IMG/VR virus record: IMGVR_UViG_3300009788_000147
Span: 1 to 47,069 of that record
From: a virus
DNA: 47,069 nt
Direction: 5' to 3' (one strand)
Shown here in pieces: positions 9,507-47,069 of this stretch. Every line of letters begins with the position of its first letter. Position 1 is the first letter of the stretch. Below the pieces are notes generated by a model. That model was not told where the DNA came from. It searched no databases and saw only the letters and a list, made by a program, of their open reading frames with translations. The position numbers were made by a program, and so were the translations under genes.

Positions 9507-10469
9507 CTAGATACCGTACTTCATGTTGAGCGAGAGCGGACGGCGAACCGTGATACCGCCTTGGCGCATATGGTAGATAACAGAGGTCTCCAACCCATTA
9601 CGCTCAGGAGGAAGTTGCTCTAAGTCCAATGGTACATTCAACTGAATCTTGCGCTTATTGAACTCATAGGCTACCATGACATCCTCACCGCCTGGACCTT
9701 TACCAGCTAGCTCACGATGGCGAGTAAGGCGTTTGATGTATGGGCTATTATCCATGAAGTAACGAGCGATAGTCTTATCGGTACCGTTCCCCATATTCGT
9801 TTGGTGGATGTAATCAAACTGCTCGATTGGAAGCGCCAAGGTGTCCGGTGCTTCGTTATCCCCTGTATTGATTACGATCTCCTTAGCGTTGTCGGCCATG
9901 TCAGTGACAACAGCGATCGGAGTCTTACTAGTCCAGATACCACCAGTAACGGCGGCGAACGGAATAGACGTACCACTAGAGAAGAGACCTACTAGACCGT
10001 GCTTAGTATCACCGTTGAAAGCGATATTACCTTCCTGCCGCATGTGAGCTTCACGGGCTGCGATAGCATCTTCACGGTCAAGAGGTTTACCAGTCGCCTT
10101 ACTAGCACGGATTTCCTGCAAGTTCCAAACAGCTTGGATAGCCTGCGAGCGAACCGAACTAGACTTCTCTTCAGTGAACACATTCACCGTAGGAATCTCG
10201 TCACCATAGTTGGCGATGATTTTCGCTAAGCCAGTGCGCGTAATCTGACGCCAAGTGATTGTTTCTGCGGTCGGGCCTGCGCTAGTATCGACAGGGAAAA
10301 ACTCCCGGTGTGTAATACGAGCTTGCTTGAACTCGGTAAGCTCGACTAGAATATGCTCTAGCTCACGCGCGTAGAAAATATTCTCATCAGAGTCGAGCCG
10401 GTCAAGAGGTTCAAACTGACACATTTGTGCCAAAGGAACATGAGGGTTAGTGTTAACGTATGCGTTCAT
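9507..10469 (-). CDS. Major capsid protein (DUF2184)
   Basis: The 320-residue protein has features of the DUF2184 HK97-fold capsid family. These are an N-arm, then ARELEHILVELTEFKQARI (about 35-53), the helix NLQEIRASKATGKPLD, the short loop EGNIAFNGDTKHGLVGLF (about 147-164), and a late FMDNSPYIKRLTRHREL segment. It is preceded by a cement protein and protease/scaffold and followed by adaptor genes. The stop codon is TAG, which argues against genome-wide TAG recoding. Confidence 0.85.
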   Translation of the reverse strand: MNAYVNTNPHVPLAQMCQFEPLDRLDSDENIFYARELEHILVELTEFKQARITHREFFPVDTSAGPTAETITWRQITRTGLAKIIANYGDEIPTVNVFTEEKSSSVRSQAIQAVWNLQEIRASKATGKPLDREDAIAAREAHMRQEGNIAFNGDTKHGLVGLFSSGTSIPFAAVTGGIWTSKTPIAVVTDMADNAKEIVINTGDNEAPDTLALPIEQFDYIHQTNMGNGTDKTIARYFMDNSPYIKRLTRHRELAGKGPGGEDVMVAYEFNKRKIQLNVPLDLEQLPPERNGLETSVIYHMRQGGITVRRPLSLNMKYGI

Positions 10470-30087: not shown

Positions 30088-30161
30088 GTCCAGAAAGCTA
30101 AAGTGGTACAGCAGCGGATTGCGCAATCCGTGAGGTGTGAGTTCAAATCTCACTCTGGACG
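30088..30161 (+). tRNA. tRNA-like element E (8-base anticodon loop)
   Basis: The acceptor stem GTCCAGA/TCTGGAC, T arm GTGAG-TTCAAAT-CTCAC and D arm are good. The anticodon stem GCGGA/TCCGT equals that of bacterial tRNA-Cys, but the loop TTGCGCAA has eight bases instead of seven; CGGATTGCGCAATCCG is a perfect palindrome. With U33 kept, triplet GCG would follow. Eight-base loops are known from +1 frameshift suppressor tRNAs. Amino acid not assigned. Confidence 0.6.
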
Positions 30162-30164
30162 CCT

Positions 30165-30272
30165 GCTTAGGTGGCGAAATCGGTAAACGCGGCGGGTCGC
30201 ACCCGCTTTACTTGAGGTGGGTCGCTCTCATCATTAGTTCAAGTTTTGTAGGTTCAACTCCTACCCTAAGCA
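30165..30272 (+). tRNA. tRNA-like element F (108 nt, oversized variable arm)
   Basis: The acceptor stem GCTTAGG/CCTAAGC and T arm GTAGG-TTCAACT-CCTAC are perfect, the D arm is of the leucine/serine type (GCG-AAATCGGTAAA-CGC), and CCA is encoded. The anticodon stem can pair as GGCGG/CCGCT around GTCGCAC, with position 26 missing. The variable region is about 40 bases with a 6-bp stem ACTTGA/TCAAGT, far longer than class II norms. The likely anticodon CGC is uncertain. Confidence 0.55.
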
Positions 30273-31025: not shown

Positions 31026-32759
31026 ATGAAGGCAGTTCCAAGAATCCGGGTCACCGCACACAGCGGGCGAGAGTTCGCCTACAAACTGGCTAGCGCGCAG
31101 ACCACCAAGAAAATACGGGACGACTTCCGCAAGGTAATCAGGGACTTCTGTAGGTGGGACCATCCAACCAAGAGCTATATTGGTGCTATTGATGACTTCC
31201 CACGGTTCGTAACGAGTGCCTCTAGCGACTTCCTACTTGATATCAATCACGCTATTCTGCTCGCTGTAGAGAAGCGTGTACTCGCCATACGGGAGCAAGC
31301 TCTATCCCTAGACCAATCTCTACGTTGCTCCGAGCTATTCGACTACCAGAAGGAAGGAGTTAGCTTCCTCGCTGGTAGGACGGCCGCAGGACTCTTTGAT
31401 GACATGGGTCTAGGCAAGACGGTCCAATCCATTATGGCGATTCCGTCTCACGCTACAGAGCCTTGCGCACCAACTATCATCGTGTGCCCTGCAAGTGTCA
31501 AAGGCGTATGGATTCGGGAAATCAAGAAGTGGCGCCCCGCAATCACCAAGGTATATGTGATTAGTGGTCGAGGGAACTTTGTGCCTCCCTCCCCTGGTGA
31601 GGTCATGATTCTCAACTATGAGATACAGCCAGACTTTGATGAGCTAGAGGCGATGCAAACTGAAAACGTTTGGTGCCCAGGCACTATCCTAATCGGGGAT
31701 GAAATCCACGCGTGCAAATCACCAAAGGCAAGGCGCACGAGGGACTTCAGGGCTTTGCGTGAGGCTATTACAAGCCACGGAGGACAGGTCTGGGGCCTAA
31801 GCGGTACTCCACTACTCAATCACGGTAAGGAGCTTAAGGAGGTCACTAAGACGCTTGGCATCTTTACCGAAGCATTCGGGACCGATAAGGACTTCGCATC
31901 CCTCTTTGATGGGTACTACACAGAGAACGGTAAATGGGTAGCCGACTACTACAGTCCTCAACCTGAGTTAGCCGAGTGCCTAAGCGCTGTGAGCCTACGT
32001 CGTCACAAGAAAGATGTGCTCAAGCAGCTACCAGATAAGATTTATGGTACTCCTATTATCGCTGACCCTCCAACTGGTGAGATTGCAGCTATCTGCGATG
32101 AAGCTCTAGAGAGTGACCTAGTACAGCAAGCACTCGAATCCCTCACATCGGATAAGCAAGAGTTTGGCATGGGCGCCTTGGCGATTGCCAGAAAGGCCCT
32201 AGCCACCTGCAAGATACCGAAACTCTTGGAGATTATCGAAGAAGAGTACGAGGCTACTGAGACGCCTGTGGTAATCTTCTCGGCTCACCGTGCTCCGATT
32301 GACATGCTCGCTAAGCGCCCTGGCTGGATTACCGTAACAGGCTCCACATCGCCTGCTAAGCGAGCACAGATAGAGGACGATTTCCAAGCCGGGAAGTACA
32401 AGGGGATTGCGGGCACTATTCGAGCTATGTCAGAAGGTATGACACTGACCTACGCGTCTCACGTGCTCTTTGTAGACCTCGACTGGACCCCCGCACGGAA
32501 CACACAAGCGAGCGATAGAGTTTGCAGGATTGGGCAAAAGAATGCTATCCTGATTCGCACTCTGATTGCAGACCACCCACTAGACATCAAAGTAATGGAG
32601 TGTCTGATTCGCAAACAAGCGGCCTTTGACAAGTCCGTGAATCAACTACCTCATTACCAGCAAGAGGAAACACTAACACCAACGGGCGGCGGAAGTCTCC
32701 TGTACAAACAAGCGGAAGAGCTGGCGATGATTGCCGGACTCTTGGAAGCCCACATCTAA
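31026..32759 (+). CDS. SNF2-type helicase / translocase
   Basis: The 577-residue superfamily 2 protein has motif I FDDMGLGKTVQS (about 124-135), motif Ia TIIVCPASVKGVWIREIK, motif II GDEIHACKS (about 220, DEIH instead of DEAH), motif III WGLSGTPLLN, and in the second half VIFSAHRAP, then VLFVDLDWTPARNTQASDRV and CRIGQK, the SNF2 motif VI. The N-terminal 100 residues are specific. Related phage proteins remodel replication forks (SMARCAL1/UvsW-like). First gene of the replication block; the next gene starts on the last base of its stop. Confidence 0.88.
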   Translation: MKAVPRIRVTAHSGREFAYKLASAQTTKKIRDDFRKVIRDFCRWDHPTKSYIGAIDDFPRFVTSASSDFLLDINHAILLAVEKRVLAIREQALSLDQSLRCSELFDYQKEGVSFLAGRTAAGLFDDMGLGKTVQSIMAIPSHATEPCAPTIIVCPASVKGVWIREIKKWRPAITKVYVISGRGNFVPPSPGEVMILNYEIQPDFDELEAMQTENVWCPGTILIGDEIHACKSPKARRTRDFRALREAITSHGGQVWGLSGTPLLNHGKELKEVTKTLGIFTEAFGTDKDFASLFDGYYTENGKWVADYYSPQPELAECLSAVSLRRHKKDVLKQLPDKIYGTPIIADPPTGEIAAICDEALESDLVQQALESLTSDKQEFGMGALAIARKALATCKIPKLLEIIEEEYEATETPVVIFSAHRAPIDMLAKRPGWITVTGSTSPAKRAQIEDDFQAGKYKGIAGTIRAMSEGMTLTYASHVLFVDLDWTPARNTQASDRVCRIGQKNAILIRTLIADHPLDIKVMECLIRKQAAFDKSVNQLPHYQQEETLTPTGGGSLLYKQAEELAMIAGLLEAHI

Positions 32760-36499: not shown

Positions 36500-37565
36500 G
36501 AGCAACAATAAGCTCTCCTACTCGCGCATGTACAAGTATCTTCATTGTCGGTATGAGTACAAGCTACACTATCTGGACGGTTTGAGACGCCGGGGCAAGG
36601 TCGCTATCCCGCTTGAGTTTGGCACACTAGGGCATGCGGGTATGGAAGCGGCGTTCCTCTACAAAGCGAAGCACCAAACGGCTCCCGTGTCCGAGATTGT
36701 GAACGCCGGTAGGCAAGGCGTAGAAGCCAAGGTAAAGGAGAACTTCGACAAAGGTTGTGCGGAAACTAAGGAGCAAGTGCAGGATCTTTGGGAAGATGTA
36801 GAGAGCCAAGTAATCGGCGCGCTAGAATGGATTGACCTGGACAGGTGGGAAGTAGTCAAGCACCCTGATACCGGGGAGCCCCTAGTAGAGATTCACCTAG
36901 AGACCGAAGTAGGTGGAGGTTGGGACTGCTTACAGGCTTACGTTGACCTGGTATTGCGCAACAAAGCTAACGGTAACGTGTTCGTGGTGGACCACAAGTT
37001 TCGGAAGGCGTTTCAAGACTATGATAAAGAAGAGACGGCCGTCCAGTTCACTATCTATCAGAAGCTCTTGGAGACACTCGGACTCGACTTCTCTGGGGTT
37101 ATCACTTTCCAGATAAAGAGCAAACCGCCCTCGGTCCCAAAGACTACCAAAGCAGGCGGAATTAGCCGCGCCAAAGTGGCCTGCTCTTGGGAGAGCTACA
37201 AAGGCTTCGTTCTGGCGATGGGTCTAGATCCGGCCGATTATGCCGAAATGGAGTACAAGCTAGCCAATGTCGAGTTTTTCCGGCTCACCTATAGTCACCG
37301 CTCGATTGAGGAGATTGAAGGCACTTGGGAGAACGTGAGAAACATCGCGGCTGAAATGAAGTTCTTAGAGAGCGGACATCTTGGCCCTATCCGCAATCTC
37401 AAGCCCGGCCCTATGGGGTGCGCAAGCTGTAGCATGAAAGAGCTTTGCTTAGCCGAGCTTCGTGGAGAAGATGCCGACTATATCAGGAAATCTCGATATA
37501 GGCACTATGACGATGAAGATACTGTATTCCGTCCTGAAGACGTTATACTATTGGAGGATGAATAG
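36492..37565 (+). CDS. Cas4/RecB-like PD-(D/E)XK nuclease
   Basis: I place the start at ATG 36492 (357 residues, MSKSNNKLSYSRMYKYLHCR). It has the RecB-like layout: N-terminal Ser-..-YLHCRYEYKL, EFGTLGHAGMEAAF, the catalytic VDLVLRNK..VFVVDHKFRKAF (D..DxK) and QFTIYQKLL. At the C-terminus CASCSMKELCLAEL, with the Cys of YLHCR, gives the four-cysteine iron-sulfur cluster of Cas4-like nucleases. Such phage proteins resect DNA for recombination together with a Sak4/SSB pair, which follows here. Confidence 0.8.
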   Translation: MSKSNNKLSYSRMYKYLHCRYEYKLHYLDGLRRRGKVAIPLEFGTLGHAGMEAAFLYKAKHQTAPVSEIVNAGRQGVEAKVKENFDKGCAETKEQVQDLWEDVESQVIGALEWIDLDRWEVVKHPDTGEPLVEIHLETEVGGGWDCLQAYVDLVLRNKANGNVFVVDHKFRKAFQDYDKEETAVQFTIYQKLLETLGLDFSGVITFQIKSKPPSVPKTTKAGGISRAKVACSWESYKGFVLAMGLDPADYAEMEYKLANVEFFRLTYSHRSIEEIEGTWENVRNIAAEMKFLESGHLGPIRNLKPGPMGCASCSMKELCLAELRGEDADYIRKSRYRHYDDEDTVFRPEDVILLEDE

Positions 37566-37771
37566 TGTACACTTTTCTCGGTCCGCCTCCCGTATCCGAC
37601 ACGCAAGCTCGTTTAGCCAATAGATTAGGGATGCCGATACTAGCGTGTCGAATATGGAATCGCTTATATGCTCTTGAGACAACACAGATGAGCCCCGGGT
37701 CTGATATGTCTGTCAATGAATACCGGCGCAGAAACTGGCTACCGCTATGGCACTCAAAATCACCAAACTAG
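37565..37771 (+). CDS. Small hypothetical protein, GTG start
   Basis: This 68-residue protein begins at the GTG that shares a base with the upstream TAG and overlaps the next gene by 25 bases. Its sequence (TQARLANRLGMPILACRIWN) has an HTH-like helix pair, but the match is weak. Function unknown. Confidence 0.45.
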   Translation: MYTFLGPPPVSDTQARLANRLGMPILACRIWNRLYALETTQMSPGSDMSVNEYRRRNWLPLWHSKSPN

Positions 37772-38505
37772 AACCGACTAAGCCGCGAATCAAGGCACTG
37801 ATTTACGGTCCGCCAGGGAGCGGTAAGACAACTCTCGTGGCCACCGCGAATCAGCACGAGGACATGGCAAACCTGTTGATTGCTGATATCGACGATGGCC
37901 TACTCTCTATCCAAAGTGAGAAAGGTATCATTAAGGCCTCGATTGATTGCACTCAAGACTTAGAAGAGCTTCAACAGATGGCAGCGCGCGGGGCGGAAGA
38001 GTTCGAAGGTATTCAGACTATCGCCATTGATAGTATATCCGAGCTGAACGATAATCTCATGCGCGAGATTGCGATCAGGGAGGCTAAGAAAAGCTCGGAT
38101 AGGAAGCCAGACAAGAACGAGATTCAAGACTATGGAGAAGCTACTGCGAGACTCTCACGCGTCCTTAGGTTCTGCCGGTCCCTACCCTTCCATATCATCG
38201 CCACAGCTCATGACAAGACGGATAAGCGTATCGTAGACACGCGCAAGAAGTCCAAGCATGATGCGCAAGTCTTGGCGATTTATCCTAAGCTACCTGAGAA
38301 GTTGGGGACCGCCGTTAGAGGCATCTTCGATTTCGTTTGGTATCTCGATTCCGATGGGGAAGGCGGACGTAGGATGCTCACACAACCTAACGGAGTCATC
38401 GCAGCTAAGACCCGTGGAAACAAGTTCGCGCCCAAACTGGGCAACGTAGTTACTAATCCAAACCTTGCAGAGATCTACTCTCTGCTACTCGAAACAGAAG
38501 TATAG
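37747..38505 (+). CDS. Sak4-like RecA-fold ATPase
   Basis: The 252-residue protein has Walker A IYGPPGSGKTTLVA (about 19-32), the Walker B-like TIAIDSISELND (about 95-106), and FHIIATAHDKTDKR. Size and order match the Sak4 single-strand annealing / RecA-like proteins of phages, which act with an adjacent SSB and Cas4-type nuclease. All three are present here in order. Confidence 0.8.
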   Translation: MALKITKLEPTKPRIKALIYGPPGSGKTTLVATANQHEDMANLLIADIDDGLLSIQSEKGIIKASIDCTQDLEELQQMAARGAEEFEGIQTIAIDSISELNDNLMREIAIREAKKSSDRKPDKNEIQDYGEATARLSRVLRFCRSLPFHIIATAHDKTDKRIVDTRKKSKHDAQVLAIYPKLPEKLGTAVRGIFDFVWYLDSDGEGGRRMLTQPNGVIAAKTRGNKFAPKLGNVVTNPNLAEIYSLLLETEV

Positions 38506-38521
38506 GAAAGAGAACACAGCC

Positions 38522-38974
38522 ATGACACACGATCCATTTACCAACAGCGAAGAAGAAGAGTTTTCCTTTGAGGGTGAAAGCTCCAAGCTCGAAATCGGGG
38601 ATTTCATCCTAAAGGTTATCGATGTAGAAGACGGCACCAGCAATAAGAGCGGTAATCGTATGCTCACCTGGACCTACCAAGTTATTGAGACCGCAGATGG
38701 AAAGGAGGCACCGGGGGCGCATGAACTAAAGGATTATCTCCCGCTCACGGATAAGATGATGTGGAAGATTGAACACCTTTGTGGCGTGCTCAATCTCCCG
38801 CATTCCAAAGAAGGGAATCGCGTCAAGCTCAAGTTCAAGAAGTCTGACGTTATAGGCACATTGTGCCTCTGTACTACCAAGGAAGAAGAGTACGATGGTG
38901 TTATGCGTACCAAGATTGACAAACTCAAGCCGCATCCTAAGGGTGCAGGGTTCAAGGGTGGAGGGTCATTCTAG
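38522..38974 (+). CDS. OB-fold single-strand DNA-binding protein (DUF669-like)
   Basis: I place the start at the ATG at 38522 after AGGAAAGAG (150 residues). The pattern LEIGDFILKVIDVEDGTSNK, then NRMLTWTYQVIETADGKE and HELKDYLPLTDKMMWKIEHL, is that of DUF669-type OB-fold proteins, usually partners of Sak4. The C-terminus is Gly/Lys-rich (PKGAGFKGGGSF) rather than acidic. Confidence 0.7.
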   Translation: MTHDPFTNSEEEEFSFEGESSKLEIGDFILKVIDVEDGTSNKSGNRMLTWTYQVIETADGKEAPGAHELKDYLPLTDKMMWKIEHLCGVLNLPHSKEGNRVKLKFKKSDVIGTLCLCTTKEEEYDGVMRTKIDKLKPHPKGAGFKGGGSF

Positions 38975-39195
38975 TGGCTACGTCAACTAAGATCACTAAG
39001 AAACGCTCGTCACGTTTTACGTCTGTATGCTATAACACGGAAGAGTCCGCCTTGACCGTCGTTTTTCGACATGGCAAAGTGACAGGTTATCATTACCATG
39101 GTGTCCCGGCTTTCGTCTATGCCGAGTTCTTATCTGCGGAGTCCATGGGGCGATACTATGATGACTTTATCCAAGGTCGTTACTTGAACGAGTAG
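38974..39195 (+). CDS. KTSC-domain protein
   Basis: The 73-residue protein begins at a GTG overlapping the preceding TAG. The KTSC-type pattern is SSRFTSVCYNTEESALTVVF, GYHYHGVPAFVYAEFLSAES and GRYYDDFIQGRY. The KTSC domain occurs in lysyl-tRNA synthetase fusions and in small phage proteins. Its role in phages is not known. Confidence 0.72.
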   Translation: MATSTKITKKRSSRFTSVCYNTEESALTVVFRHGKVTGYHYHGVPAFVYAEFLSAESMGRYYDDFIQGRYLNE

Positions 39196-39228
39196 TCGAC
39201 CCTCGCGCGCATACACGTGCGCGCGTAT

Positions 39229-39302
39229 ACCCACGTAGCCCAATAGGAAGAGGCAGCAGACTTAAAATCTGTGCGTTGCGAGTTCGAGTCTCGTCGTGGG
39301 TA
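39229..39302 (+). tRNA. tRNA-Leu (anticodon UAA)
   Basis: This is a canonical cloverleaf: acceptor ACCCACG/CGTGGGT, D stem GCC/GGC with a GG-containing loop, anticodon stem GCAGA/TCTGT with loop CTTAAAA (U33, anticodon UAA), variable loop GCGTT and T arm GCGAG-TTCGAGT-CTCGT. The short variable loop differs from bacterial tRNA-Leu, which has a long arm, so the anticodon says Leu but charging may be unusual. A hairpin CGCGCGCA/TGCGCGCG lies just upstream at 39204-39225. Confidence 0.85.
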
Positions 39303-39304
39303 CT

Positions 39305-39424
39305 ATGGAAAAAAGAACAAAAGTCATTCTCACGCCTATGGAGTTTGTATTAGGGCTACTTGTGTTCGGAGGTGCTGTAACGATAATGGACAGGGTGATA
39401 ATGCACTTTGTAGGCCAGTGCTAG
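39305..39424 (+). CDS. Very small membrane protein (39 aa)
   Basis: ATG at 39305, three bases after the tRNA; the product MEKRTKVILTPMEFVLGLLV.. has a hydrophobic span LGLLVFGGAVTIM. No good ribosome site is seen because the tRNA lies directly upstream, so expression is doubtful. The stretch from here to the polymerase start at 39510 also holds a GTG-start frame (39418-39588) with a hydrophobic start, of low credibility. Confidence 0.35.
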   Translation: MEKRTKVILTPMEFVLGLLVFGGAVTIMDRVIMHFVGQC

Positions 39425-39509
39425 CTATCGGATTCATTCACACGTTGCAAGGTGCTAAGCCCTATGTAGCAATCGGTAATACCCTCTATTGGGTAGGGAA
39501 AGAGATAAA

Positions 39510-41327
39510 ATGGCGAGACATCTTATTGGGTCAATTCGAGACTACGATGAAGCAATGCGACACATCGAAGGGTCGCAGCTCCGAGTAGCTGACACGGAAA
39601 CAACCGGCCTTATTCACCATAGGGATTACATAGTAGGTGCGAGCGTGTGGGCGCGTGGGGAAAGCTTCTACTTTCCTTTCCGGCACTTTGAAGGGTACAA
39701 TATCCCGGGCGCAGATAGCAGGCTTTTCGATCTGGGCGAACTACTACACAACCCGTGCATGGCGAACGGCGAGCCTACTTCTTTAGGTGGCTTTAACTAT
39801 CAGTATGATGTCAAGATGTGGGCGCGGGATGGCGTAAGGAAGCCAGTACTATGGGAGGATCCTATCCTTATGGCACACCTGTGTAACGAAAATGAGGTGT
39901 CCTTCAAAATGGAGTCACTCGCTGAGAAGTACGTGAACGAAAGCGCGGGCGGTGACGAGCAAGAGTTGCTAGATGCTATCAGGGCCAAGTTCCCAAGCGC
40001 ACCAAAGAAGGGAATAAAGGGTTTGATGTGCTATCTTAGCGGCGCTGCCGTAGGCTCCTACGCTATGCAGGACGTGGAGACAGCGTTTGATCTCTATATG
40101 TTCTATATCCCATGGCTCAAGCGCCAAGGGCTTTGGGAACTGTACAAAGAGCAGAGGTATTTCGCTAAGCATGTCACCAATATGGAACTAAATGGGCTCC
40201 TGCTGGATAAAGAACGACTAGAGGTCAACTCTGTTGGCGCGGTCGCAGAGACAGCAAGGCTCAAGAAAATCCTATGTGATATGGCAGGTCACGAGGTTAA
40301 CCCTAACTCACCAAAGCAGATGCAGGCTTTGCTCAGGGTGCCAAGCACTGCGCGAGACAAACTAGAGATAGCCTATGAAGTAGCTAACCCTAAAATCAAG
40401 GGAGCCAAAGAGCTGCTATCTTGGAGACGGTACAAGAAAGCAGAAGGGACCTACTATCAGCCTTTTCGTGAGCTTGTCAGTGTTGAAGGGCGCGTACACC
40501 CTAATCTGCGTATCGTTGGAGGGTGGCAGCAAGAAGGAAGCGGGGGCGGCACGGTTGCAGGCCGCCTATCAGCACAACATCCTAACCTGCAAGCCGTGAC
40601 ACGAGGGACAGGCGAGAAGTACAGCTCACGCGATGTCTTCATTGCCTCGCCAGGTTACACACTACTAGAGTTTGACTTTTCGCAGGCAGAGCTTCGTGTC
40701 GCTTCTCACTATGCGAAAGAGAAGACCATGATTGAAATGTTCCGTGCGGGCATTGATATCCACCAAGGTGTGGCGGATGAGCTTGGCTTTCCTAGGTCGC
40801 TTGCCAAGAATGTGAACTTCTCATTCCTCTATGGTATCGGGCCTAAAGCGTTTGGGGAAAAGTATTTCATGTCATTCAAAGACGCGCGTGATACCCTGCG
40901 CGCTTACGATGCGCGCTTCCCCGGTTTCAAAAGGCTCTATCGTAAGTGTGAAGCATTCGCTAGGAAGCACCGTTACATTCAGATGTGGACGGGGAGACGG
41001 CGCCACTTTAACACTAGTAGAACACAGCCCCGCGACGCCATGAACAACCTTATCCAAGGGGCGGTGGGCGAAATGATTCGTCGCCTTTTGGTGGCTATTG
41101 GTGAAGATATCAAGTTTTTTGACCCTGAACTTTATCGGGCTTGCTTGACGGTGCACGATTCTGGTATGGCAGAGATTATCGCCAAACTAGAGTACATCTA
41201 TTCACGAATGCGAAGAATCAAGCAACTAGCCGAAGATCAACCTTGGTGTTCCGTCCCTATTAAACTGGATTTCAAAAAAGGTAACCGATGGGGTTCAATG
41301 AAAGAGATAGTGTTAACAGATGTCTAG
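39510..41327 (+). CDS. polA: Family A DNA polymerase with 3'-5' exonuclease
   Basis: I choose the ATG at 39510 after GGGAAAGAGAT (605 residues). The N-terminal exonuclease has VADTETTGLI (about 27-36), GGFNYQYDVKMW and the late YAMQDVETAF. The polymerase has motif A LEFDFSQAELRVASHY, motif B RSLAKNVNFSFLYGIG (Arg, Lys, Phe, Tyr in family spacing) and motif C CLTVHDSGMAE. All catalytic aspartates I expect are present. It replicates the phage genome with the PrimPol/helicase upstream. No 5'-3' exonuclease domain. Confidence 0.93.
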   Translation: MARHLIGSIRDYDEAMRHIEGSQLRVADTETTGLIHHRDYIVGASVWARGESFYFPFRHFEGYNIPGADSRLFDLGELLHNPCMANGEPTSLGGFNYQYDVKMWARDGVRKPVLWEDPILMAHLCNENEVSFKMESLAEKYVNESAGGDEQELLDAIRAKFPSAPKKGIKGLMCYLSGAAVGSYAMQDVETAFDLYMFYIPWLKRQGLWELYKEQRYFAKHVTNMELNGLLLDKERLEVNSVGAVAETARLKKILCDMAGHEVNPNSPKQMQALLRVPSTARDKLEIAYEVANPKIKGAKELLSWRRYKKAEGTYYQPFRELVSVEGRVHPNLRIVGGWQQEGSGGGTVAGRLSAQHPNLQAVTRGTGEKYSSRDVFIASPGYTLLEFDFSQAELRVASHYAKEKTMIEMFRAGIDIHQGVADELGFPRSLAKNVNFSFLYGIGPKAFGEKYFMSFKDARDTLRAYDARFPGFKRLYRKCEAFARKHRYIQMWTGRRRHFNTSRTQPRDAMNNLIQGAVGEMIRRLLVAIGEDIKFFDPELYRACLTVHDSGMAEIIAKLEYIYSRMRRIKQLAEDQPWCSVPIKLDFKKGNRWGSMKEIVLTDV

Positions 41328-41526
41328 TGATAAGTACAACAAAAGAGATATTGTAGAGTGTATCGATAAGAGGGCGGCATACAATGGCTTATTGTTAGAG
41401 GTCATGTATTCATTTGAGTTGACCACGCCCCTCGGAACATCCGAACAATACTATAGGCTAAAGGATAAGGAGGGGGTACATTATGAGTTTCCTGTGGCAA
41501 GTTTACAATCAAGGGGGAGAGGTTAA
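41320..41526 (+). CDS. Small hypothetical protein
   Basis: This 68-residue protein (MSSDKYNKRDIVECIDKRAA.., then YYRLKDKEGVHYEFPVASLQ) has a beta-rich, SH3-like look and overlaps the end of the polymerase gene by 8 bases. Unknown function. Confidence 0.55.
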   Translation: MSSDKYNKRDIVECIDKRAAYNGLLLEVMYSFELTTPLGTSEQYYRLKDKEGVHYEFPVASLQSRGRG

Positions 41527-41706
41527 GTGCCTAAGAACGTTTCTACACAGTTCATTTTAGACGTATACGCGAAAGCGTATGCCGATAGTCTTCTAGAGCA
41601 TGGGACAGACATCGTGATAAATCACACCGAAGCCTTACTAGCCGTAATCTCGGCAACTCAACCCGGGGAGATATACCCCAAAGCACACACATCGAGTACT
41701 GAATAA
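41527..41706 (+). CDS. Small hypothetical protein, GTG start
   Basis: The GTG at 41527 follows the preceding TAA directly; the TAA at 41704-41706 overlaps the next ATG. The product (59 residues) MPKNVSTQFILDVYAKAYAD.. is helical. The tight overlaps support it. Confidence 0.5.
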   Translation: MPKNVSTQFILDVYAKAYADSLLEHGTDIVINHTEALLAVISATQPGEIYPKAHTSSTE

Positions 41707-42038
41707 TGGCACTAATGAAATACATCGGACCCGACGGGCTTGTCTATGAGATTGATATACCTGACATATATGATACACCAGAGGAAGCGGCCGCCGCAAA
41801 ATCTAGTATGCCCGCAAAGCTCTCAGTGCCTTGTCATAACTGTGACCACGGCAACGGGCCGACGGGTCTCAATATGTGGAACATGATTTGCATAGTGTGC
41901 GACGGAGCTTTAGAGGTCAAAGTCGAGGCTAAGCCTGAAAAGCAGGGCGAAGCTGAAAGGGCTAATGAGGCGAGTAATAGAGCTGCCGAGGTTGCAGACG
42001 CTATAATGAGAGAGTACAATAGAATCGCGTTTTCGTGA
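41706..42038 (+). CDS. Last early gene: CxxC-pair protein
   Basis: The 110-residue protein has CHNCDHGNGPTG.. and CIVCDGALEVK, forming a four-cysteine zinc ribbon (about 43-67), followed by a charged helix. It ends just before the terminator facing it. Function unknown. Confidence 0.55.
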   Translation: MALMKYIGPDGLVYEIDIPDIYDTPEEAAAAKSSMPAKLSVPCHNCDHGNGPTGLNMWNMICIVCDGALEVKVEAKPEKQGEAERANEASNRAAEVADAIMREYNRIAFS

Positions 42039-42047
42039 ACGCAAGAA

Positions 42048-42091
42048 AGCCCCGCGTCAGTGTTGGGGGCCATCAACACCAGCGCGAGGCT
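42048..42091 (-). terminator. Strong hairpin terminator between converging blocks
   Basis: AGCCCCGCG (42048-42056) pairs with CGCGAGGCT (42083-42091), with an inner GTGTTG/CAACAC. Read on the minus strand the hairpin ends in TTTCTTG, fitting termination of the late transcript after the tail fiber gene. No U-run follows on the plus strand, but the hairpin may still slow early transcripts. Confidence 0.7.
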
Positions 42092-42112
42092 AGAAAGGAA
42101 GTCTATTTGCTC

Positions 42113-43516
42113 TTAGTAGACGCCGCGGACTTCAAGATGGAGATTAACCCATTCGGCTCCTGTGCCCCCACCAGTATCCGTAGCAATCTCAATACTGAAT
42201 GTTCTCGCTCCCGCGGAAGGGATCGTATACGCGTGGATAAATGAGATTGTTTTCTCGTATGCAGTCGATAAATCTGTAGTTACAAGCGCGTTAGTTTGGT
42301 CCAACCTAATATCATAGGTGGCGATTGTGACTGTGGCTGTTTTATCGATAATGCGTACACGCACAGTATTTAGGGCAGCAGCTTCATTCCTAAACTGTCC
42401 GGTTACCGTGAGAACTACGTCCCCTACGACCTTTGGATCGTGTGGGGACGCTAGACCTGCGGAAGCAAACTCGACGAAAGATACGCTATTGTGTGCCCCT
42501 GCGGCGTCCAGTCCGAAGCCGTAGCAGTAACCTTCATTGGATGCTAGGACGTGCTGGAATCCACTAGCCGTGCGAGCTTTAAGCGTAGTAGTAACGCTAT
42601 TGTAGTAGGCATCGCCCGTGGCGTGCGTAGTGGGGTCCGCATCCTGTGGAACTAGTCGGAGAGCCGCACGCTTAGGTGAAGAAGTGTCCGCGTGTGCTTG
42701 TACGGCGTAGCCACCGCCCGCATCGGACCTAGCATTAAGGGCCGTACCGTCCCCTGTCCCTGTGGTAGCCCGTACGGCCACGGCACTAACTGTAGCCGCC
42801 GCAGGAATAGTCCCCTGGACTCCTGTGCCGACCGTACTAGTAGATACACCAGCCATCGCGGCGCTAGTTGTGGCCGATTGGCCTTCAACACCGATACCGC
42901 TGGTGGCTCCACCGATACCTATAATACCCTTACCAGTAGCGCCGCCTATAGCTTCTAAGCCTGAGCCTGTAAGGAACCCAAAACCTTTTAGGCCTACACC
43001 TGCCGTAACAATCGCGCGTCCAACAACACCCGTACCACCAAGTAACGCCTGTCCTTCGATGGCGTCACCCGTGCCACTATTCCCTGCTAAGATAGCAGGA
43101 TTAGTGGCACTTGTGTTTTGGGCCTGGATAGCGCGCGTGGTGGTAGCAGTAGCAAGTATGCCATCGCCAGAAGCATTAGCAGTAGCCACCAGGGCGGCTA
43201 AGAAACTAGTTGCCGCAGTCCCTCCGATAGCTGCTTCTGAAATCTGGGCAAGACCAGCAGAGTCAGTCTCTATGATATGATCGTCTAAATCAGGAAGGTT
43301 GGAGCCCTCTCCTACCCATTTAGTCCACGTGGTGTACTGATTCCATAAGGAGTTATACTACTGCGCGGGCGGAGTCTCTAGACCTACGAAGCCTTCATCA
43401 ATCTGCGCATTACTGCGTGCGATCTTGGTAACTGTAGTCTGGAGTAGGACGGGCCCTGTGGTAAAGAGGGTATCCGACGCAAAGATGCGGACAGCAGGAA
43501 TAACTGGTCTAGCCAT
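42113..43516 (-). CDS. Tail fiber protein interrupted by an in-frame amber codon
   Basis: The reading frame from ATG 43514-43516 runs through one TAG (43358-43360) to the stop at 42113, 467 residues in all. The first 52 codons (MARPVIPAVRIFASDTLFTT.. GLETPPAQ) and the next (YNSLWNQYTTWTKWVGEG..) form a continuous pattern. PPAQ-x-YNSLWNQ equals the PPAQ-aromatic-x-N-x-L-x-N signature at the start of many tail fibers. The body is Gly/Ala/Thr repeats (ATANASGDGI, GIIGIGGATSGIGVEGQS) and a C-terminal beta domain. No good start codon follows the TAG, so readthrough, a nonsense mutation or a sequence error is implied. Confidence 0.75.
43358..43360 (-). other. In-frame TAG within tail fiber gene
   Basis: The stop lies at the position where related fibers carry a tyrosine or tryptophan, each one base from TAG. 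The context is CAG TAG TAT. Downstream there is no in-frame ATG before the conserved segment. Confidence 0.7.
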
Positions 43517-43528
43517 GGTGGAGACTTT

Positions 43529-44170
43529 CTAGAGGGGAACGATATAGGCAAGAGGTGAGACAATAACGATAGTACCGCTAGCGTCGCCGAAGCCAGTAGG
43601 AGGGGGAGACGGAGGCAACGTACCTGTTACATCGCTATTTCCGAATGAGTCCGGAGCCACTACAATGAACTTTCCAATATAGGTAGCAGGCTTGGCAAGC
43701 CTAAGGAAAGGGGAGAAAGCAACGATCTCAGCGTCCGTTAGGCTGGCTATCTCAATCTTGTACGCTTTAGGGAAGGTGTCGACTAGATTGATAGTTCGAA
43801 CACTGTCATTTAACAGTTGGCGGATAACCTGGATAAGGTCTTCTGAAGTCCTACGCCGTTTGATTATTTGCGCACGCGCACGAAGGAAGCGCCTATATTC
43901 AACGTCTAGTTGCGCTTGCCTTGGCTGATCTAAGATGCTGCCGATTGTGTCTTGCCAGAAACCGTAAGCCGTACGGATATCGTACAAGGCCGCGATGTTT
44001 ACTGCTACATCTTCATACGCCTGCGCGCGTGTGCCAAAGGTACCCACCAAGGATTGCAGGGCGGGCCTCTTGAAATAATCAATAAGCCTGTTGATACCTG
44101 CTAGCTTGTGGTCTTGGATTTCGGGGATTACGCCTCCCCATTCTTCCGCCCATTCGTCTGCCCATTCCAT
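43529..44170 (-). CDS. DUF2612 / Mu gp48-like baseplate protein
   Basis: The 213-residue protein begins MEWADEWAEEWGG. The core NIAALYDIRTAYGFWQDTIG, then RRFLRARAQIIKRRRTSEDL and IQVIRQLLNDS, is the typical DUF2612 pattern (gp48-like tail protein that joins the wedge to the fibers). It follows the J-like wedge and precedes the fiber gene, as expected. Confidence 0.78.
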   Translation of the reverse strand: MEWADEWAEEWGGVIPEIQDHKLAGINRLIDYFKRPALQSLVGTFGTRAQAYEDVAVNIAALYDIRTAYGFWQDTIGSILDQPRQAQLDVEYRRFLRARAQIIKRRRTSEDLIQVIRQLLNDSVRTINLVDTFPKAYKIEIASLTDAEIVAFSPFLRLAKPATYIGKFIVVAPDSFGNSDVTGTLPPSPPPTGFGDASGTIVIVSPLAYIVPL

Positions 44171-44181
44171 GGTATATGCCC

Positions 44182-45444
44182 TTATGTGATAGTAACGCCG
44201 ATTCGAGCAGAGTCGAAGTCTGCTCTTTCACGAATAGCGATAACCCTTGGCAATGCGTCATAAGGGTCGACGCCCGCGCCGGGGGCCGGGAAACCTACAG
44301 GGAAAGCAGGAGCCACACCAGCGCCATTATCATAGCTTAGTTGGACATCCACACTAGTGACTGAGTTTTTACCCTGTGCATCGCGTAGAGCGTCGAAGAT
44401 GTCGCCAACAAACGATTGCGGGATAACGTCGACACCGGGGTTGTTAAAGTTAAGATTTCCGTAGGCGAGCACCGCGTCTAATACAACTTGTTCCGGGTTA
44501 TCTGGCAACACACCTTCTGCGCCCACCGTCAAACAGGTCACCAGAATGAAGATATCAATATCTGCGGGACGCGTTAAGCCTATAGTAATGTTATCTAGTT
44601 CCGAGTTTTGGACGATTACGGTAGTCGTTCCAAACGCTTCCGCACCAGGAGGTCGACCGCTTTGGATGGCTACGGCGATCGCTGTATCATCGCCTCCGTC
44701 TACTACTACTTCAAAGGCTCCACCCGGTATACCGTCTACCTCTATGGCAGTCTGATTCTCAAACGTACGGACAGAGGTAACACCAGAGACGGCTAGGACG
44801 AGCGCTCGAATCCCATCGATATCATTACCATTGATAAGCAGCTCATCCTTGCGCCTAATCCGTAAGGGTCCGTCCTGCTCATCCGCGCGTCCAATCTCTT
44901 CCGGGTCAATGTCTGCGCTCGCCTCAACAGAAGTCCAGCCCGCGACACTCGTTAGGATAGTCCAGTTAGCAGGGCCCGATGTGACAAAGGTTAGAGCGCC
45001 AAACTCAGCGGCTTCTGCTGTAGCTGCGATAGTCCCACCGCCGCCGATAACATAAGGTCCATCTGCGATAACCCAAACGTCTTCTGTGGTCGCGTTCTTG
45101 AACTGTTTCCCGTTCGGGATATTCGTGGCAGGCGTTCCCGTTAAGAGGAAGTTCTCAGACTTACTCTTAGTCTCTTCCTGCCTCTCCGTATTGGTGATTC
45201 CGCTAAGGATATCCAAGAGAGCGCCCGTTGCATTATCCGGGTCTAGGACAGTAACGATATTGAGCAAGAGCTGTTGTAGAAGAGCCTCGCGCTCAGCAGC
45301 GATACCAATGACTTTCCCGGCTACGGACCCGCTGCCTACTTTGAATAGTACACCAAACTCGGCTTGCATAAGTGTGTTGTATTCACCTATGATCTCTTCC
45401 AAGTCCTGGATTTGTATTCCTGTTGCTGATATTTGCAGAGGCAT
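44182..45444 (-). CDS. Baseplate J-like wedge protein (Mu gp47 type)
   Basis: The 420-residue protein has the Baseplate_J layout: N-terminal LEEIIGEYNTLMQAEFG, VLDPDNATGALLDILSGITN, then ENFLLTGTPATNIPNGKQFK and EEIGRADEQDGPLRIRRKDE. It ends with VTSVDVQLSYDNGAG. These proteins form the wedge of contractile baseplates with gp25. One base is shared with the upstream gp25-like gene. Confidence 0.88.
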   Translation of the reverse strand: MPLQISATGIQIQDLEEIIGEYNTLMQAEFGVLFKVGSGSVAGKVIGIAAEREALLQQLLLNIVTVLDPDNATGALLDILSGITNTERQEETKSKSENFLLTGTPATNIPNGKQFKNATTEDVWVIADGPYVIGGGGTIAATAEAAEFGALTFVTSGPANWTILTSVAGWTSVEASADIDPEEIGRADEQDGPLRIRRKDELLINGNDIDGIRALVLAVSGVTSVRTFENQTAIEVDGIPGGAFEVVVDGGDDTAIAVAIQSGRPPGAEAFGTTTVIVQNSELDNITIGLTRPADIDIFILVTCLTVGAEGVLPDNPEQVVLDAVLAYGNLNFNNPGVDVIPQSFVGDIFDALRDAQGKNSVTSVDVQLSYDNGAGVAPAFPVGFPAPGAGVDPYDALPRVIAIRERADFDSARIGVTIT

Positions 45445-45809
45445 TATGAGAAGTCCAGAGTAGCAGCGGAGGTCAAGACACCGTCCGCGGTCTCGCCCTT
45501 GATATTAACGGTTAGTAAGCTATCCTGTACAGGTTCTAGCTCTAACTCAAAATTGGTCTTGAGAAGCCCGCGAGTTCTTAGGCACTCAGTGGTAAGAAGT
45601 TCGTAGATGTCCGCTTCGTTCGGGCTGTTGAGAAAGATTCTAGCGAAGTAGGGTAGGCCTTCATTGAGACCTAGAAACCAGTTACCTTGTACACTCTTCA
45701 GACGGATTATTAGTTCCTGTTGAGTGCCTTCTAGGCCGTCGTCAACTAGCTTAAAGCCTCCTGACGAGATATGAATGTCACCCGTAGACGTTAGTTTGAA
45801 GTCTGTCAC
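45444..45809 (-). CDS. gp25-like baseplate wedge protein (Mu gp46 type)
   Basis: The 121-residue protein contains DGLEGTQQELIIRLKSVQGN, FLGLNEGLPYF and the late C-terminal VNIKGETADG, the signature of gp25/W-like wedge proteins that initiate sheath assembly. It lies directly before the J-like gene. Despite the family name it has no lysis activity. Confidence 0.85.
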   Translation of the reverse strand: MTDFKLTSTGDIHISSGGFKLVDDGLEGTQQELIIRLKSVQGNWFLGLNEGLPYFARIFLNSPNEADIYELLTTECLRTRGLLKTNFELELEPVQDSLLTVNIKGETADGVLTSAATLDFS

Positions 45810-46484
45810 TATACTGTCTTCACTCTCGCACTATTGATAGTGGCTTTAGCCGCATCCCATGCGCCTTGAAAAGCCGCAAAGCTAGCGGCACCTCCATCAT
45901 TAGGGACTGTTGCAGCGGAAGCCGCGGCGAACATAGTATCCATTAAAGCAATGAACGTAGTAGCCTTTATCACGGGCTCGACCGCCGCGGCACCAAGGTT
46001 GATTAGCGGGCTTTCAATAACGGCGGCCGCTTGACTAGTAGGCGGAACGATAGGGGCTAAATCAGAGTGCAATCCCGGGTGAAAAATGCCATCAATCTCA
46101 CTATGTGTGTGACGCAAACCCGGGTCTGTAGGGACACCCAGTTCAAGCCACTTCTCCAGGCTTCTATCACTAATGAGAACATACCCAGTGTCCAACGGTG
46201 CTAACGGGAGTGTTACATAGGAGGCAACTGTGCGCGTCCAGTGGACCGGAACAAATACAGGCAAAGGAAGATTAGGTAACTCTCCCGAAGCAGTGATACG
46301 CGTTTTCAAAGCCCCTAGTAAGACCTCTGCTTTCTGCGTCGCAGGATCATAAAACACTACAGTTGCAGGGATGCACGTTCTGATACCGAGCTTATGCGCG
46401 TAGGACTACATTGAATAGCTCTGTTAGAGGGTTGACATCCGTCCCGCGTTTGAACTGGTGTGCGCCTTCATTGTCTAAGCCCAT
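45809..46484 (-). CDS. Baseplate spike protein, Gp138 N-terminal type, apparent +1 frameshift
   Basis: A start ATG at 46482-46484 overlaps the hub stop and has GGAG upstream. Its frame (MGLDNEGAHQFKRGTDVNPL.. TELFNVVLRA) stops after 30 codons. The +1 frame continues without interruption as AHKLGIRTCIPATVVFYDP and then to the stop at 45809. Joining the two near 46388-46396 gives the normal Gp138_N layout (helix, then IPATVVFYDP.., then a TxHSEIDGIFHPG His-rich strand region). The annotated GTG at 46357 would cut off the N-terminus. I suspect an indel or a programmed shift. Confidence 0.6.
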
Positions 46485-47069
46485 TATCCAAGAATCTCCA
46501 GAAGCTCGCCAAAAGCGGGGTCTGCAAAGGCCAGTTGAGGGCCTGCGATAGCAAAGGTAGCGGAGCGCGCTTCAAAGTCCGTGTACCAGGCCTGCCCATG
46601 TGTATCACCAAAGTGCCTAACGTACTCACACCGTAGGCCCGTGGAGCTTCCTAGGTGCTCTCCTGGCAGGCCCGTGATAGGGTTAAGTACAAACTCGGCT
46701 AAGCCTACAGGCTGCTTTACAACGAACATCCCGCGACCGGGGTGGAGACCCGGGTCTAAGAGGCTTCTCCCCTTTACGTCGCCGAAACCCTCTGGTGTTG
46801 TGTAGTCGAGCAGGTTAACACCGTCCTGTAGGAGTACGCTAAAGTCGAGGGTAACAGCGCCCTGTGGAACATAGTAGATTTGACCGTCCCTAATCCACCA
46901 TTGCAAGCCATACAGTGCTGCGATTTCATCTAGGGCGGTCGACGCTTTGCCTACTACTACTGCACCGTTCTTAGTCTGAGTAACTACAGCTAAAGGTGCG
47001 ACGGCTGCTACGTTGATTTCCCCGTCCGCGGAAACCTTCATACCCATAGCTAGTTCGATGGTCTTACGG
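46484..47069 (-). CDS. Baseplate hub protein, C-terminal part (enters from right edge)
   Basis: The frame is open from the window edge (RKTIELAMGMKVSADGEI..) to TAA at 46484-46486, about 195 codons. ALDEIAALYGLQWWIRDGQI and YYVPQGAVTLDF match the second domain of gp27/XkdQ-like hubs, and the end (AWYTDFEARSA) the third. It continues the 1-466 half: the two ends lie in phases that require 1+3n missing bases between 47069 and 1. Its stop overlaps the spike ATG. Confidence 0.75.
   Translation of the reverse strand, partial: RKTIELAMGMKVSADGEINVAAVAPLAVVTQTKNGAVVVGKASTALDEIAALYGLQWWIRDGQIYYVPQGAVTLDFSVLLQDGVNLLDYTTPEGFGDVKGRSLLDPGLHPGRGMFVVKQPVGLAEFVLNPITGLPGEHLGSSTGLRCEYVRHFGDTHGQAWYTDFEARSATFAIAGPQLAFADPAFGELLEILG

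Follow-up and report, generated by a model that had tools for sequence, protein, structure and literature searches.

The window analysed here is an IMG/VR virus record of 47,069 bases. Near its right-hand end, directly downstream of a baseplate J gene and a DUF2612-like gene, lies a tail-fibre frame on the minus strand. It runs from an ATG at 43516 to a stop at 42113-42115 and comprises 467 codons plus stop, interrupted by a single internal TAG (Table 1). A preliminary description had reported an in-frame amber codon which splits a frame of this length, and this is what the window contains. It had also been stated that both sides of the TAG carry typical fibre sequence; codon-usage scores favour the same frame ahead of the TAG, across the next 56 codons and over the remainder.

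Table 1. Features of the fibre locus and positions at which the window departs from its near-identical contig
Feature	Position	Strand	Remarks
Tail-fibre gene	42113..43516	-	467 codons, interrupted at codon 53 (TAG); the N-terminal domain shares homology with fibre N-termini of Vequintavirinae/Stephanstirmvirinae
In-frame TAG	43358..43360	-	Codon 53; Glu codon in near-identical IMGVR_UViG_3300024265_000430
Difference to IMGVR_UViG_3300024265_000430	41571	.	Outside listed ORFs
Missense in gp25-like baseplate gene	45773	-	Residue 13: His in window, Asp in IMGVR_UViG_3300024265_000430
2-bp (GC) loss	46396	-	Versus IMGVR_UViG_3300024265_000430; frameshifts spike (xxxxx_N) gene, expected at ~46485..45809

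A TAG at this position would cut the fibre to 52 residues, i.e., nearly the whole protein would be lost. The first in-frame ATG, GTG or TTG past the TAG is a GTG at 43189 (codon 110). It has no convincing ribosome-binding site, in agreement with the earlier statement that no usable start lies between the stop and the conserved part. Promoter-like matches occur at chance level only. On these grounds two separate genes divided by the TAG were considered and rejected.

To which family does the fibre belong? A tblastn comparison of the N-terminal ~85 aa with the tail-fibre proteins of two Vequintavirinae, Acinetobacter phage ABPH49 (AXN57965.1) and Serratia phage Kashira (URC22638.1), yields 27% identity at E values of 0.07-0.08, which alone is weak. 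We accept the homology nevertheless because the alignment and the gene order agree. The window fibre has its N-terminal ~85 aa in common with fibres of Vequintavirinae and related phages. The alignment to ABPH49 and Kashira extends across codon 53, and in both phages the genes follow each other as in the window (baseplate J - DUF2612-like - fibre). In an alignment of 17 fibre N-termini M1, P4, G42 and N55 are invariant, and A2, K31 and W64 are nearly so. The window fibre carries the motif [QE]-x-[aromatic/hydrophobic]-N and the conserved W of the Vequintavirinae-type N-terminal domain. From the gene position and from general knowledge about fibres we infer that this domain serves baseplate attachment. 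The similarity detected to the fibres of ABPH49 and Kashira is limited to the N-terminal part. Pfam and PHROGs returned no match for the window fibre, and neither did a search of solved structures.

The residue which the family uses at codon 53 is evident from the alignment. Homologous N-termini were compared from 15 fibres of annotated phages: 12 have Glu at this position, two have Ala and one has Gly; the uninterrupted fibres of ABPH49 and Kashira have Ala. The TAG had been placed at a conserved aromatic position. This does not hold: the aromatic or hydrophobic position is the adjacent codon 54 (Y54 in the window), and the column of the TAG itself is occupied by E, A or G, with Glu also in the near-identical contig.

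This contig, IMGVR_UViG_3300024265_000430 (10,191 bases), matches the window from 36912 to 47069 with 99.95% identity over ~10 kb. Only five bases differ, i.e., substitutions at 41571, 43360 and 45773 and a 2-bp indel at 46396. All three substitutions are transversions. The one that generates the TAG (43360) is a G-to-T change on the coding strand, and G-to-T is a change typical of oxidative damage. In the near-identical contig the fibre frame is open across 467 codons, and the encoded 467-aa protein is identical to that of the window except for the sense codon which replaces the TAG. Thus the comparison with relatives, which the preliminary description had proposed as a check, yields a sense codon at this position in the near-identical contig as well as in the 15 homologues. 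The site of the TAG is covered by one contig besides the window, i.e., by two known sequences. Searches for close relatives by protein, using the fibre, the baseplate J protein and the DUF2612-like protein, recovered this contig only; a search of genome contigs with the fibre N-terminus and a DNA search of annotated phages for close relatives gave no match, and no relatives were found for the protein at 31026-32759.

Is the TAG read as an amino acid? Phages which have recoded TAG (genetic code 15), crAss-like phages among them (PMC9523058, PMC10607447), have TAG inside many genes; for phAss-1, 41 such ORFs are given (PMC10607447). An in-frame TAG within a gene is what these phages and the window have in common; the window differs in that its internal TAG is a lone one, TAG is a normal stop and an amber-reading tRNA was not found. 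General recoding is excluded because TAG terminates 24 of the 56 ORFs in the window, terL included, and the earlier conclusion that the genome is not globally recoded therefore stands. A search of the window with ARAGORN and Rfam for a tRNA with a CTA anticodon detected none among up to four tRNA-like genes. A phage of the code 15 type was thus rejected on both counts, the use of TAG as terminator and the tRNA complement.

The only clear tRNA in the window is a Leu(TAA) at 39229; the remaining tRNA-like genes have odd loops, none with CTA. They are located at 30088-30161 (+), 30165-30272 (+) and 21826-21753 (-), score above the Rfam threshold and have non-standard anticodon loops. Read by eye, one loop has 8 nt (TTGCGCAA), another is a class II loop that is short or distorted, and the last is distorted (AACCCGAC). 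Real tRNAs with modifications, remnants and additional sequence errors are all conceivable readings of these three genes. A second copy of the anticodon arm of the gene at 30088-30161 was not found in viral contigs.

Natural readthrough or suppression of the TAG, by which a minor amount of full-length fibre is produced or the codon is decoded by a suppressing tRNA of host or phage, would fit the coding-like frame on both sides of the TAG and the lack of a good restart codon. Yet the near-identical contig has Glu and the 15 homologues have sense codons at this site, so readthrough would be private to the window sequence, and since the stop is not conserved a programmed readthrough was rejected. 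The tRNA-like genes without CTA and the use of TAG as ordinary terminator argue in the same direction, and the spike frameshift described below would require a separate explanation. We regard readthrough as very improbable. Variation often targets fibre genes, and a host-range or phase switch, in which the TAG turns the fibre off reversibly, might be considered for this reason. Against it stands that the change is a lone substitution within the N-terminal domain, that only one of the two known sequences has it, and that it removes nearly the entire protein. A truncation to 52 residues eliminates the fibre and does not change its specificity; consequently such a switch is implausible, and among the readings considered here we give it the least credence. 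It is likewise highly doubtful that the TAG is a real polymorphism maintained in the population, where part of the genomes would have a fibre-off allele and either suppression in the host or complementation by fibre-on siblings would rescue it, with fibre produced at a low level.

The fibre is not the only gene that is broken in the window. In the near-identical contig an intact spike gene, located upstream of the gp25-like gene, encodes 225 aa with a full-length match to Pfam xxxxx_N (PF18352, profile positions 1-98, E 7e-12). The GC loss in the window shifts this frame after ~30 codons. What remains is an ORF of 182 aa with an internal start which matches profile positions 8-98. The fibre TAG and the spike frameshift are ~3 kb apart, and both affect genes of the baseplate module near the contig end. 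The third coding difference follows suit. At residue 13 of the gp25-like protein four homologues have D, I, E or V, and the His of the window is absent from all four. Hence, three of the four right-hand differences are coding, and in all three (nonsense, spike frameshift and missense) it is the window that holds the unusual or broken state.

The left part of the window serves as a control. Here IMGVR_UViG_3300028610_000481 (21,585 bases) covers positions 1-21585 with five substitutions, four of them synonymous and one a Thr/Ala exchange; four are transitions and none is disruptive. Judged from the sequences, these differences are of the kind expected of natural variation under selection. The right-hand differences, i.e., transversions, a nonsense codon and a frameshift, are not of this kind, although the numbers are small. 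By computation a random substitution in these genes generates a stop in ~3.4% of cases, and therefore a nonsense codon together with a frameshift among four differences would be unusual for selected variation. Disruptive differences amount to two of four on the right and to none of five on the left. These counts are too small to convince alone, and therefore the argument for an error rests on the intact copy and on the residue of the family.

A real nonsense mutation must be weighed at this point, i.e., a null or near-null fibre allele in the genome or the sampled strain, for example in a defective or complemented particle or in a decaying provirus. Codon 53 is a single base away from a sense codon, and the broken spike gene would suit a genome in decay. 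However, the large head and tail genes in the rest of the window have open frames, and none of the differences between the left 21.6 kb and the contig nearly identical to it is disruptive. The stop is not found in any relative, and the lesions in spike and fibre together would be expected to abolish infectivity. A genuine null allele thus appears unlikely, albeit worth keeping in mind.

From these comparisons we consider it probable (about 0.72) that the TAG arose as an error in the local consensus, through sequencing, amplification or low-coverage assembly, in an ordinary tail-fibre gene with a sense codon at position 53. This reading is favoured because two breaks ~3 kb apart near the contig end hit baseplate-module genes which are expected to be needed for infection. 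It is further supported because the Glu of the near-identical contig is the commonest residue in this column. We infer that the base of the window at codon 53 is in error and is not a real allele. The fibre of this phage would then be normal, 467 aa long and attached to the baseplate through its N-terminal domain, and the TAG most likely is not a biological feature. Of the options initially offered, a sequence error, or else a private null mutation, is backed by the comparison; readthrough or suppression is not, and a switch of host range is unlikely.

One potential case of stop-codon readthrough or of host-range switching among phage fibres is thereby removed. Further, the right-hand part of the window should not be relied upon base by base, as fibre and spike are broken here and intact in the near-identical contig. 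Gene callers applied to the window will list truncated fibre and spike products and miss both true starts.

The ends of the contigs deserve mention. The window and IMGVR_UViG_3300028610_000481 begin at the same base (CACCAAAGG). At the other end IMGVR_UViG_3300024265_000430 (10161-10191) extends 22 bases beyond the end of the window (47069) and then finishes with the same 9 bases. This overrun and the shared 9 bases suggest that the two ends of the window adjoin, save for 22 bases which it lacks. Their common boundary could represent a terminus of the genome, or else a break in the assembly within the baseplate-hub gene.
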